Shown here: piece by piece, positions 37,010 through 42,047 of the stretch
How the letters are laid out: each line of letters starts with the position of its first letter
Position numbering within the stretch: position 1 is the stretch's first letter
From: Deltaproteobacteria bacterium
Lineage (GTDB): Bacteria; Desulfobacterota_D; UBA1144; Nemesobacterales; UBA2774
Assembly: GCA_040223695.1 (NCBI GenBank)
Contig: JAVKFU010000007.1
Location: 62,001 to 126,000 of the forward strand
Direction of reading: 5' to 3'
DNA: 64,000 nucleotides
Program-made: the position numbers and the translations under genes
The notes under the pieces: model-generated
What the model saw: only the letters and a program-made list of their open reading frames with translations
Databases searched by the model: none
Told to the model about the DNA's origin: nothing

Positions 37010-37441
37010 ATGATGAAAAATATAGCGTTAAGTGGAGTTTTAACCCTTCTTATCGGCCTGAGCGTCGCCAGTTATGCAGAAGAGACGTCCGAGTCCGATA
37101 AATTTAGTTATGACAGCAATCAGGTTTTGCACCCGGAATGGTACATCGACGTAACCAAATGGTCTTTCTTTACGGCTGCCAGGGTGGCAATGCTGAGCTC
37201 GGTTACAATAGAGAATACGGCCGACGTCGCCTATAAAGACATCAAAATCAAACTCTATTATGCCTCATACTCACACCCCGCTGCCGGAATTATAGCCACG
37301 ACCACCGGCATCCTGCCCGTAACTGTTCCCCCTAACAGCAAGGACACCTATCTCAAAGGCGGAATTACCATGGGCGCAGGCAATCAGAACTACAAGGTAA
37401 CCGATATAGAAGTACTGTCGGCAACCCCTGTAAAAAACTGA
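37010..37441 (+). CDS. exported protein, 143 aa, beta-rich
   Basis: A signal peptide (residues 1-23, ending near ASYAEE) is followed by a 115-residue domain of beta-strand character: VAMLSSVTIENTADVAYKDIKIKLYYASY and LPVTVPPNSKDTYLKGGIT. The pattern resembles FxLYD-like or immunoglobulin-like exported domains. No Shine-Dalgarno is obvious. It begins a run of small genes on the plus strand (37010-39627), followed 36 nt later by the first 7-residue-repeat gene. Confidence 0.7.
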   Translation: MMKNIALSGVLTLLIGLSVASYAEETSESDKFSYDSNQVLHPEWYIDVTKWSFFTAARVAMLSSVTIENTADVAYKDIKIKLYYASYSHPAAGIIATTTGILPVTVPPNSKDTYLKGGITMGAGNQNYKVTDIEVLSATPVKN

Positions 37442-37477: not shown

Positions 37478-38050
37478 TTGAAACAACATTTATCGAAAAC
37501 TATAAGACTCCACACGTTCGCACTATTTATATTCCCGTTTTTTATAGTCTGCACTTATCCAATAATGGGCACTTCATCAGAGGATGAATATTTCGAGTCT
37601 TTTTCCGATACCGAAATTCAATATGACGAATACGGATTTGCGTACCTTCCGGGGTCTGAATACACGCACGATCACGAATATTATCCGGAGGAATATGAAT
37701 ACTATTTTGACGAACACTCAGCCGACGATGAAGAATGGGAATATACCGCCGATCAGGATCTGTTTTTGGTGGAGCAACCCGATCCGCTGGTCGATCAGGG
37801 AAACCCCCTGGTAGATCGTCCCAATCCCCTTGTTCAGCGTGAAGCGCCGCTTGTGAATAGACCCGATCCTCTTGTAGAACAATCGCGCCCGCTGGTAAAA
37901 CAATCCGCTCCGCTCGTAGAGAGACCCCTACCGTTGGTTAAGCGCCCGCATCCTCTCGTTACCAGGCCCCGTCCTCTGGTTAGACGGCCCGCTCCACTGG
38001 TGAAGATGCCCCGTCCGCTCGTCGAGCAGCCGCCGCCGCTTGCGCGCTAG
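37478..38050 (+). CDS. secreted protein with 13 heptapeptide LVxxxxP repeats
   Basis: This is 190 residues with a TTG start at 37478, seven nt after AAGAGG. Residues 1-30 form a signal peptide. Residues 31-96 are acidic and tyrosine-rich (23 D/E and 11 Y of 66, no Lys or Arg). Residues 97-187 are thirteen exact-length 7-residue units, consensus L-V-x-[QR]-[PSG]-x-P, then LAR. Charge moves from acidic in the first units to strongly basic in units 7-12. Codons for the same residues vary from unit to unit, so the pattern is kept at protein level. No homologous family is known to me. It lies 101 nt before the acidic repeat protein. Confidence 0.85.
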   Translation: MKQHLSKTIRLHTFALFIFPFFIVCTYPIMGTSSEDEYFESFSDTEIQYDEYGFAYLPGSEYTHDHEYYPEEYEYYFDEHSADDEEWEYTADQDLFLVEQPDPLVDQGNPLVDRPNPLVQREAPLVNRPDPLVEQSRPLVKQSAPLVERPLPLVKRPHPLVTRPRPLVRRPAPLVKMPRPLVEQPPPLAR

Positions 38051-38113
38051 CCGGGTAACGTGAACAAGACATATCAATTGAGCTTCGGAAATAACAACTG
38101 AAGGAAGGAAAAA

Positions 38114-38155
38114 ATGAGGATTGAAGAAGATTACAACAACAGGAGGAACAAATGA
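38114..38155 (+). CDS. possible 13-codon leader ORF
   Basis: AAGGAAGG precedes an ATG that opens MRIEEDYNNRRNK and stops at TGA 38153-38155, overlapping the ATG (38152-38154) of the acidic repeat gene in an ATGA junction. The AGGAGG for that gene lies inside the leader. It may couple or buffer translation of the repeat gene. Chance occurrence is possible. Confidence 0.35.
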   Translation: MRIEEDYNNRRNK

Positions 38156-38631
38156 GAAAATCGCTAGGAGACAAAATACTTTTCACTATGCTCTTTCTGA
38201 CTATGGTCTACGCGGCTTCGTTACTTCCATTTATTCACAATGCCGCAGCATGGAATCTTTCCCCGGCACACAAGAGTCCGCTAATTCAATATGAAGAAGA
38301 AATAGGGCCTCCGCCCGTACCGGACACGCCCAGGGCCCCGGAGCCGGGGGAAATGTACGACCCCGCTCTTTCTTCCGACAGCGCGATCTCGGAACCCGAT
38401 CCGTTGTTTGAAGAACCCGAGCCTGTCGTCGAACAGCCTGAGCCCTATGTGGAGGAAGCGGAGCCTTTTCCGGGAGAGGCGGAACCCGAAGTAGAAGAGC
38501 CCGAGCCGTTGGTTGACCAGCCTGAACCACTCGTTCCCGAGGAAGAACCTCTGGTTGACGAGCCGGAATCCATGGTCCCCCAGGGAGAGCCGCTAGGTGA
38601 CAGGGAGGCTGAGGGAAGAGGCATAAGATAG
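38152..38631 (+). CDS. secreted acidic heptad-repeat protein with GDREAEGR tail
   Basis: This 159-residue protein has a strong AGGAGG. Residues 1-33 form a signal peptide. A Pro-rich stretch is followed by ten 7-residue units at 81-150 of the type x-x-E-P-[LV]-V-[ED], for example EPEPVVE, EPEPLVD and QPEPLVP. Between R61 and R151 there is no Lys or Arg, so the repeat is a polyanion with regular prolines. The end PLGDREAEGRGIR matches the tail of the 4934-5416 protein. The next gene upstream has the same 7-residue, Leu-Val-Pro spacing but becomes basic. The repeat probably forms an extended polyproline-like rod; function is unknown. Confidence 0.85.
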   Translation: MRKSLGDKILFTMLFLTMVYAASLLPFIHNAAAWNLSPAHKSPLIQYEEEIGPPPVPDTPRAPEPGEMYDPALSSDSAISEPDPLFEEPEPVVEQPEPYVEEAEPFPGEAEPEVEEPEPLVDQPEPLVPEEEPLVDEPESMVPQGEPLGDREAEGRGIR

Positions 38632-38702: not shown

Positions 38703-39050
38703 GTGCTATTCGACAGAAAAATCGATTTCAGTGAATCAAAGCAGAAAGAGTGGGAACTGCTCAAATCAAAAGTGGGATCGGGAATCGAACTCCCTTTGCC
38801 CGACTCCGAAAGATGGTTTCACACTCACGTAGAAGGAGAAGACCTTATTGTTGAAAGCGCAAAACTGAATGTGCGCCCGCTCATGATATATGATCCGATA
38901 AAGATAGATTTTGAAGAATTCAAAACCGTGGCAGAACACTACAACAGCTTTCTAGAGCTGCAGGTAAGGACAATGAGCGATACGCATGAAATTAAAGACA
39001 AGGCCAAGAATCTTCGTTACGTCTTTATGATCATTTACCATCTTTTGTAA
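38703..39050 (+). CDS. hypothetical protein, 115 aa
   Basis: This has a GTG start at 38703 after AAGGAGG. It is a soluble, charged protein (KQKEWELLKSKVGSGIELPL, ERWFHTHVEGEDLIVESAKL, VRPLMIYDPIKIDFEEFKTV). No family is recognised and no signal peptide is seen. It is placed 71 nt after the acidic repeat gene on the same strand and may share its transcript. Confidence 0.65.
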   Translation: MLFDRKIDFSESKQKEWELLKSKVGSGIELPLPDSERWFHTHVEGEDLIVESAKLNVRPLMIYDPIKIDFEEFKTVAEHYNSFLELQVRTMSDTHEIKDKAKNLRYVFMIIYHLL

Positions 39051-39120: not shown

Positions 39121-39627
39121 ATGTTCCCGAAGAATTATTACGAGCTAATGGCCGAGTACAACAAATGGATGGACTATAAAATATACGGTGTATGCAGCGG
39201 GATTCCGGACGCCCTACGGAAGAAGGATATGGGCGCGTTTTTTAAGTCGATCCACAGTACCCTTAACCATATCTATTACGGCGACATTGCGTGGCTCGAA
39301 AGGCTCCGCGACAACAAATTCACGCCGAGGGAGATAGGCGCGGACCTCTTCGATGACTTTGAAGAACTCCGAGCGGCCCAGGAAAAGACAGATGTCGAAA
39401 TACTCGAATGGGCCCGGAGCCTGACACCCGAAGACCTGAATAGTGAATACGACTACGAGAGCAATGTGAAGGGATTTAAAAGAACACTTCCACGATGGGT
39501 GCTTGTGACACACATGTTCAACCATCAGACGCATCACAGAGGTCAGGTAACTACGCTTATAAAACAGCTCGGCATTGATCCGGGAATCACTGACATACCG
39601 TGGCTTCCGTGTCTTGAGGATAAATAG
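39121..39627 (+). CDS. DinB-family metal-binding protein
   Basis: This 168-residue four-helix DinB/YfiT-type protein opens with YYELMAEYNKWMDYKIY. The metal-binding histidines are in HSTLNHIYYGDIAWLERL and in HMFNHQTHHRGQVTTLIKQLG. DinB proteins are metal-dependent, often thiol-transferase or hydrolase-like; the substrate is unknown. AAGGAAG precedes the ATG. Confidence 0.88.
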   Translation: MFPKNYYELMAEYNKWMDYKIYGVCSGIPDALRKKDMGAFFKSIHSTLNHIYYGDIAWLERLRDNKFTPREIGADLFDDFEELRAAQEKTDVEILEWARSLTPEDLNSEYDYESNVKGFKRTLPRWVLVTHMFNHQTHHRGQVTTLIKQLGIDPGITDIPWLPCLEDK

Positions 39628-40507: not shown

Positions 40508-40732
40508 TCACTCGAAGTAGCAAGTACCGAAGTCGGGAATTCCTCCCCCCGTATCCATCTCTTCTTCATAGGAATACTGGCAATAGCACACCCCTATTTC
40601 CCCGCAGTCATAGGAGGTGTTGCACTGCTTTCCCTGGTTGCAGTCCTTGCATTGAACAGGCCTGGCGCCCAGGTAAACACCGGCAATTGCAACCATTATA
40701 ACGACGACGAATGAAATTACGATTTTCTTCAT
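40508..40732 (-). CDS. small secreted Cys-rich protein, 74 aa
   Basis: After a signal or anchor helix (residues 4-22) the product has seven cysteines (CKDCNQGKQCNTSYDCG, VCYCQYSY, TCYF) in about 50 residues. The spacing is irregular and no known Cys-rich fold is matched. It lies 85 nt downstream of the large Cys-rich gene on the same strand and may be secreted with it. Confidence 0.6.
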   Translation of the reverse strand: MKKIVISFVVVIMVAIAGVYLGARPVQCKDCNQGKQCNTSYDCGEIGVCYCQYSYEEEMDTGGGIPDFGTCYFE

Positions 40733-40817: not shown

Positions 40818-42047
40818 TCAGCATGCAGATTTTCCGAATAATTTCCTCGCCAGTATCAAGCCCGGTATCAGAAGCCATAAAGGGAGGCCTCTCTCCCCTC
40901 CGGCTGCCGGTGCAAGCGCACAGCTCGAACTGCCGCCACTTTTTTCCTTTTCGCCGCACAGGGTACCGTTTATATCGCACTGAGGTGTAATTCCCCTTTC
41001 CCGCTGCAGTTTGTTCACATCGAATATAGCGGCTTCGGTCTTACTATTAGCAATACAACCGCAAATCTGGCTTGCACAGCAGCTACATCCCGCCTCTTCC
41101 TCCAGTTTGATAATTTCCGACACGTCACAGCTCTGAAGCCCCGAACATGCCTCTTCGACCAAATCCCTGTCATTACATTGCGAAGTACATAAGGTTGCAT
41201 CGCATGTATAGCCTATCTCAATCCCATTTGCGGATTGGCAGCTTCCATACTCATCGCATACTTCCTCACAATTAACGTTATCCGGGGGAAGAGGAATATC
41301 GTCCGGCAATAAAGGGCATCCTCCAATCGACTCCGGGGCGTCCGGTATGCAACCGTCAAAAGGCGGTGTGGGCAAAGTCCCTGTAGCGTTCGGATTAAAG
41401 GCCGCGGACCAGACCATATCTTCTCCCAGATCGCACACCTGATTGTTAAGCCCTACCTGATACGGCCCGTTGAACGTCGGGCAAAGACATTCTACAATCC
41501 CTTCTTCACCTGTTCTGGTACACGGGGCTGTCATACATCCCGCGTACAAGGACGGGGCGCAGTTCGTCTCTCCCAGGCCCTCTTCCGGCACACAATCGAA
41601 GCTAAACGTGGAAATCATGTCCGTGCCGGGAATAAAACTGCCGTTATTGATAGAACCGCACACCGGAGCAGAGTTAGTAGTCTGACAAGCGCTGCCGTCC
41701 GCTCCGCATTTCTCAATCGTCTCAAGATATACATCCAGATTCAGGATCGCATTAATGTCTACAAAATATTTTCCATAAGAAATTTCGAAACATTCACAAT
41801 TCGCGAATGTCCCGTCTCCTACAAGCTCGCATTTCTCAGGCTCCGGACCGGAGTAATAACACAGGGCTATCGGTCCGCCCTCGCAAGGTAGAAAATTGGA
41901 GGGCTCGAGGATTATGTCCGCAAAAGCAGGCCCGAAAGGTGTCGTCATCAAATCATTAGGCACAAAATTTATTTGAGCCCGCGATGACGGAACAAAAAAT
42001 ACGGAAAGAATAAGCATAGACTTAATCAGAATTATATAGATTTTCAT
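40818..42047 (-). CDS. large Cys-rich exported protein with MYXO-CTERM-like anchor
   Basis: This is 409 residues with a signal peptide (1-24) and 34 cysteines in the whole chain, many in CxC or CxxxC arrangements (NCECFE, VECLCPTF, EEAGCSCCASQICGC). The C-terminus is tripartite: SSSCALAPAAGG, then the hydrophobic stretch LPLWLLIPGLIL and the basic ARKLFGK. This resembles MYXO-CTERM-type sorting signals, where a Cys precedes a membrane segment and Arg/Lys. I infer cell-surface display by a rhombosortase- or myxosortase-like enzyme, none of which is in this window. The ectodomain family is not recognised. Confidence 0.7.
   Translation of the reverse strand: MKIYIILIKSMLILSVFFVPSSRAQINFVPNDLMTTPFGPAFADIILEPSNFLPCEGGPIALCYYSGPEPEKCELVGDGTFANCECFEISYGKYFVDINAILNLDVYLETIEKCGADGSACQTTNSAPVCGSINNGSFIPGTDMISTFSFDCVPEEGLGETNCAPSLYAGCMTAPCTRTGEEGIVECLCPTFNGPYQVGLNNQVCDLGEDMVWSAAFNPNATGTLPTPPFDGCIPDAPESIGGCPLLPDDIPLPPDNVNCEEVCDEYGSCQSANGIEIGYTCDATLCTSQCNDRDLVEEACSGLQSCDVSEIIKLEEEAGCSCCASQICGCIANSKTEAAIFDVNKLQRERGITPQCDINGTLCGEKEKSGGSSSCALAPAAGGERGLPLWLLIPGLILARKLFGKSAC

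Follow-up and report, generated by a model that had tools for sequence, protein, structure and literature searches.

The window analyzed here, a 64,000-nucleotide stretch of a 3.0-Mb genome (G000, contig C7), contains two adjacent genes, gene 1 and gene 2, whose products are rich in proline-containing heptads. They are part of a block of genes that all lie on the + strand, preceded by a gene for a 143-aa protein and followed by genes for a 115-aa protein and a DinB-family protein (Table 1). The intergenic gaps in this co-directional block are 36, 101, and 71 bp. A promoter/terminator scan found no terminator-like site between the block genes; for promoters the scan was uninformative, with one promoter-like site against 3.2 expected. 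The window also encodes two Cys-rich exported proteins, a small one (40508-40732; DCNQGKQCNTSYDCGEIGVCYC) and one of 409 aa that matches no Pfam family (40818-42047). Several relatives have kept both of them downstream of the locus.

Table 1. Features of the repeat locus, in window coordinates.
Feature	Position	Strand	Remarks
143-aa secreted beta-sandwich protein, family unassigned	37010..37441	+	57-69% identity; predicted fold
Gene 1, exported; Tyr/Glu-rich acidic segment ahead of 13 LVxxxxP heptads that pass from acidic to basic	37478..38050	+	orthologues in G002, G003, G006, G012; predicted disordered
LVxxxxP units 1-13 of gene 1, all exact (protein residues 97-187)	37766..38038	+	
Basic units 7-12 of gene 1 (10 K/R, 1 E; protein residues 139-180)	37892..38017	+	
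Gene 2, exported; acidic paralogue of gene 1, ten degenerate heptads	38152..38631	+	orthologue of the g2 single-copy gene
Ten gene 2 heptads, acidic; first K/R in last unit	38404..38613 (accurate to a codon or two)	+	
115-aa conserved protein, family unassigned, downstream	38703..39050	+	found in the 12 genomes that have the repeat locus
DinB-family gene	39121-39627	+	

Gene 1 encodes 190 amino acids from a TTG start codon, with AAAGAGG located 7 nt upstream. Its repeats read LVEQPDP, LVDQGNP, LVDRPNP, LVQREAP, LVNRPDP, LVEQSRP, and LVKQSAP (units 1-7), followed by LVERPLP, LVKRPHP, LVTRPRP, LVRRPAP, LVKMPRP, and LVEQPPP (units 8-13). These 13 in-register units compare with a longest run of two for a looser pattern in 2000 shuffles, and the identity at a lag of seven residues is 0.39, against a shuffle maximum of 0.15. 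The original prediction had described 13 exact units that turn from acidic to basic, a description that both the sequence and the shuffles bear out; the ten Lys/Arg residues that it had counted against one Glu in units 7-12 are also there. Over the mature protein, acidic and basic residues are segregated beyond all 20000 shuffles, while the segregation within the 13 units alone is moderate (412/20000 shuffles). In the window protein, residues 26-110 carry a net charge of -26 and the last 80 residues +9. AlphaFold2 returned a model with a pLDDT of 55 and a pTM of 0.12, in which the signal helix is the sole folded part and no regular structure lies beyond it. On this prediction, which is based on only five sequences, the gene 1 protein is expected to be intrinsically disordered.

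Gene 2 encodes 159 amino acids from an ATG start codon with the ribosome site AGGAGG. Its heptads are LFEEPEP, VVEQPEP, YVEEAEP, FPGEAEP, and EVEEPEP (1-5) and LVDQPEP, LVPEEEP, LVDEPES, MVPQGEP, and LGDREAE (6-10). The lag-7 identity of this protein is 0.28 (shuffle maximum 0.20). The ten units that had been proposed for gene 2 are thus present, but the Leu-Val-Pro pattern and the purely acidic composition ascribed to them hold only in part: exact Leu-Val occurs in three units only, and a Lys or Arg first appears in the tenth. Similarly, the opposite charge attributed to the two products applies to their tails; gene 1 as a whole has a net charge of -14, and only its C-terminal half is basic. 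Both repeat proteins are probably exported, as had been supposed, by means of Sec-type signal peptides that are clearest in the orthologues. The putative cleavage regions are ...PGTAAA|EDWR in G003 gene 1 and ...HNAAA|WNL in the window gene 2, and the signal of the window gene 1 is less canonical.

Neither repeat protein has a match in Pfam or NCBIfam at E <= 1. A search of PDB sequences with gene 1 produced nothing credible, and gene 1 used alone as the query found no relatives among the genome contigs and none among plasmids. The repeat locus is present in 12 of the 16 genomes of one Candidatus Dadabacteria family, the members of which have been deposited under that name or under older Deltaproteobacteria/Thermodesulfobacteriota labels. 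A family-wide search located the 115-aa gene in precisely the same 12 genomes. In three genera, the locus contains both gene 1 and gene 2 (5/5 loci): g1, that of the window; g3 (G002, G006, G012); and g4 (G003). In g2, a single acidic repeat gene occupies the same position at six complete loci (G001, G005, G011, G013, G014, G015), not counting a seventh, in G009, that is truncated at the contig end. No basic partner of the g2 protein is detectable at the six complete loci, and every gene 1 has a gene 2 next to it (5/5 loci). Four genomes did not yield the locus (G004, G008, G010, G007). A true loss in the first three was considered and rejected, because their contigs break inside or just before the locus; G007 is 59% complete and has no obg match. 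Outside the family, the phylum has one repeat-like match at E <= 1e-4, in G022, and it is unlinked to the locus. This match (L057 6529-6933), in another family of the order, is an acidic 134-aa protein with PLVPQ/PIVPE heptads, encoded beside a pentapeptide-repeat-like protein; its heptads may be convergent.

The two repeat genes are tandem paralogues: an alignment of gene 1 from G003 with gene 2 from G006, which runs through the non-repetitive N-terminal segment, shows 38% identity over 159 aa (84 bits). Indeed, G003 gene 1 retains the segment that marks gene 2, QYDxxDxxPPxPDTPxAPGPGxIxDxALSPDSVIxxPDPPID. The g2 protein and the window gene 2 have in common an N-terminal PPPxPDTPRAxxP and a C-terminal GEPLGxxxxEGRGxR. 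The two repeat genes are therefore products of a tandem duplication, with the g2 gene being either the orthologue of gene 2 or a descendant of the common ancestor. Gene 1 may have been gained by the paired genera or lost from g2, as neither the Obg nor the RpoB tree resolves the base of the family. G011 has a second RpoB-domain match (G011:C137:102-1181; L146) with eight in-frame stops, along with an intact rpoB on another contig; the second match is possibly an assembly error, contamination, or a pseudogene.

The repeat proteins are functional and under purifying selection. Between g3 orthologues, whole gene 1 has a dN/dS of 0.24, and its repeats taken separately 0.09-0.14; gene 2 has 0.15-0.16, falling to 0.06 in its C-terminal part. 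The single g2 gene has a dN/dS of 0.08. In the Leu, Val, and Pro columns of gene 1, pS is 0.73, near synonymous saturation, and pN is 0.03. It is because of these low ratios, and because Leu, Val, and Pro are kept despite the synonymous saturation, that we regard both genes as constrained. The original prediction had argued for selection at the protein level from codons that vary while residues are kept, and on this point it was right. The same figures weigh heavily against a functionless low-complexity expansion in which similarity and charge are products of drift and composition. Proline-rich repeats do expand and contract easily, and unit numbers vary among the relatives; however, dN/dS of 0.06-0.24, near-unchanged Leu/Val/Pro positions, and a charge polarity found in 5/5 loci make this explanation scarcely tenable.

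That polarity is constant across the pairs. At the five paired loci, the first part of gene 1 is acidic (-26 to -38 in 5/5 orthologues) and its last 50 residues are basic (+9, +8, +6, +6, and +8). The last 50 residues of gene 2 carry -14 to -18, and its last 80 residues -25, -27, -26, -25, and -21. The single g2 proteins have -3 to -8 in their last 50 residues and -9 to -13 in their last 80. The charges of gene 1 and gene 2 thus lie on opposite sides of the single-copy value, in a comparison that covers five pairs from three genera, which are few and related. The individual charged residues are far less constant than their sum. Across the gene 1 tails, 17 columns have Lys or Arg in any sequence and two have it in all five, and the net charge stays between +6 and +9. 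The repeat register, on the other hand, is kept across relatives only in gene 1. In g3, gene 2 has no LV run, and its lag-7 identity is 0.19-0.21 (shuffle maximum 0.17-0.20); in g4, it is a 101-aa acidic protein without heptads. The best reading of these alignments is that selection keeps the net charge pattern, not the repeat register.

This result bears directly on the arrangement first proposed, in which the two products were taken to be extended, register-matched rods, oppositely charged and paired lengthwise. The window proteins do have a common period of seven, a proline at the same position of the unit, and opposite charge. A shared heptad and proline register finds no support in the relatives as a basis for pairing, though, as regular heptads have been lost from gene 2 in g3 and all of them in g4. 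Further, the basic part of the gene 1 repeats is limited to units 7-12, and g2 has no basic partner to offer. Matched rods are therefore very unlikely, but mutual binding of the two proteins in some other manner is possible. The expectation that the pair would be conserved together fails, since g2 keeps the acidic protein alone at its six complete loci, an outcome that the original prediction had itself named as contrary evidence. Charge complementarity, by contrast, has not been lost in relatives, being kept in 5/5 loci with both genes. In sum, the observation is real and slightly stronger than first stated, since relatives keep the charge polarity and do so under purifying selection, and the interpretation attached to it is only partly supported.

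The gene neighborhood offers another possible partner. The 143-aa gene is directly upstream of the repeat gene or genes in 11/11 family loci that are assembled on that side. Its product has a predicted seven-stranded fold (pLDDT 70), an invariant HPEW core, and a conserved ARVA.LSSV.IENT stretch. It belongs to no Pfam or NCBIfam family, and a fold search found nothing better than E 0.01. We assign it no function, because the search matched only generic beta-sandwiches. Matches to this protein (paralogues and a multidomain form of ~490 aa) occur in 39/44 genomes of the order. The heptads could be a multivalent linear-motif scaffold for this beta-sandwich, with charge tuning which copies dock. 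Such an arrangement would account for the 11/11 adjacency, which includes g2 and is tighter than the association of gene 1 with gene 2, and for the retention of the LV..P positions of gene 1 against strong synonymous turnover. Yet beta-sandwich paralogues exist across the order without adjacent repeat proteins, the g4 gene 2 has lost the motif, and the domain model is only moderate at that pLDDT. We thus consider the scaffold improbable.

At the g3 and g4 loci and at most of those in g2, obg and the 143-aa gene are separated by a divergent SCO1/SenC and multicopper oxidase gene pair (for example, L046 8190-10332 and L048 7747-9892). The assignment is Pfam-confirmed in G002 and was judged elsewhere by the resemblance of translated starts. 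This copper gene pair is missing from the obg/143-aa interval in the window, G005, and G001. The copper genes were considered as a functional clue for the repeat locus and rejected, because the window is without them in that interval.

Among known systems, the closest physical parallel is the periplasmic linker of TonB, in which (Glu-Pro)n is followed by (Lys-Pro)n, both forming polyproline-II rods, and whose two stretches, opposite in charge, can form a hairpin in simulations (PMC10771500). Like that linker, gene 1 encodes an exported, proline-rich, disordered chain with an acidic stretch and then a basic one, and this charge order is found in 5/5 orthologues (-26 to -38, then +6 to +9). Gene 1 differs in having LVxxxxP heptads rather than X-Pro dipeptides and in having a separate acidic paralogue adjoining it. 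Nor are the repeat proteins one periplasm-spanning energy transducer. Pfam and NCBIfam searches detected no TonB C-terminal domain in either protein, and the chains end in repeats or a short tail. The resemblance is physical, and the repeat proteins are not TonB. On this analogy, three fates are conceivable for the gene 1 product: folding back on itself, binding to gene 2, or binding to a polyanion of the envelope. Also close to the pair is the single g2 protein with its acidic LVEQP heptads, which has the same 143-aa/115-aa flanks, N-terminal segment, C-terminal tail, and period of seven as gene 2; it differs from the pair in being one gene, whose product lacks a basic tail like that of gene 1 and is less acidic than that of gene 2. 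These proteins matched no known family, and we place them, as a variant, among charge-segregated, proline-rich, disordered envelope proteins.

Our preferred reading, to which we give somewhat less than an even chance, is that this family-restricted tandem pair encodes secreted, disordered, proline-rich paralogues whose net charge pattern is selected, and that gene 1 engages in fuzzy electrostatic pairing with gene 2, with itself, or with both. Sec export would deliver both chains to the periplasm or the surface, where they would lie extended as polyelectrolytes resembling polyproline II. There, the basic gene 1 tail would make fuzzy electrostatic contacts with a polyanion, the simplest candidates being the acidic product of the adjacent gene 2 and gene 1's own acidic half. 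The outcome would be a loose, charge-balanced layer or tether, not a register-matched rod dimer. Fuzzy pairing of this kind is consistent with a charge split that is constant in five pairs, with basic positions that shift while the net charge holds, and with low dN/dS, paralogy, predicted disorder, and co-directional genes with short gaps and no terminator-like site. Several facts count against it. The genus g2 manages without gene 1. The acidic half of gene 1 (-26 to -38) is larger than its tail in charge, so that gene 1 could neutralise itself and an external partner would be unnecessary. Finally, the sample is small, five related pairs from three genera, and neither marker tree resolves the base of the family.

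A different polyanion would lead to a different picture. The basic tail of gene 1 could anchor the protein to an anionic polymer of the envelope (LPS phosphate, peptidoglycan, exopolysaccharide, or extracellular DNA), with its acidic half as a spacer; gene 2 would then be an independent acidic surface or metal-binding paralogue, and the two proteins would not bind each other. The solitary acidic protein of g2 is readily accommodated in this way, as is the g4 gene 2, which lost its heptads while the gene 1 tail persisted. Basic residues that slide along the tail with net charge kept are also expected for docking to a repetitive polyanion. Anchoring does not explain why gene 1 is found only beside gene 2 (5/5 loci), and the analysis did not identify a candidate polymer. 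We judge it rather unlikely, and less likely than fuzzy pairing.

A bolder extension of fuzzy pairing is an extracellular two-component electrostatic material, in which tandemly duplicated, secreted proline-heptad proteins that diverged in charge assemble with each other on Dadabacteria cells, into a complex coacervate or a polyelectrolyte layer. Like the disordered proteins and polyelectrolytes that form complex coacervates, the members of the pair are oppositely charged, low-complexity, disordered chains. Unlike in those systems, gene 1 is net acidic and basic only in its tail. Such a material is a quite improbable, speculative outcome.

The locus is a compact natural case for a question about disordered proteins, namely whether selection sees their net charge and charge pattern or the positions of their residues, and the sister genus g2 supplies a single-copy comparison for the charge-split pair. 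Should the two products associate, they would form an unusual electrostatic layer of two components, in a bacterial phylum that is known mainly through metagenomes.
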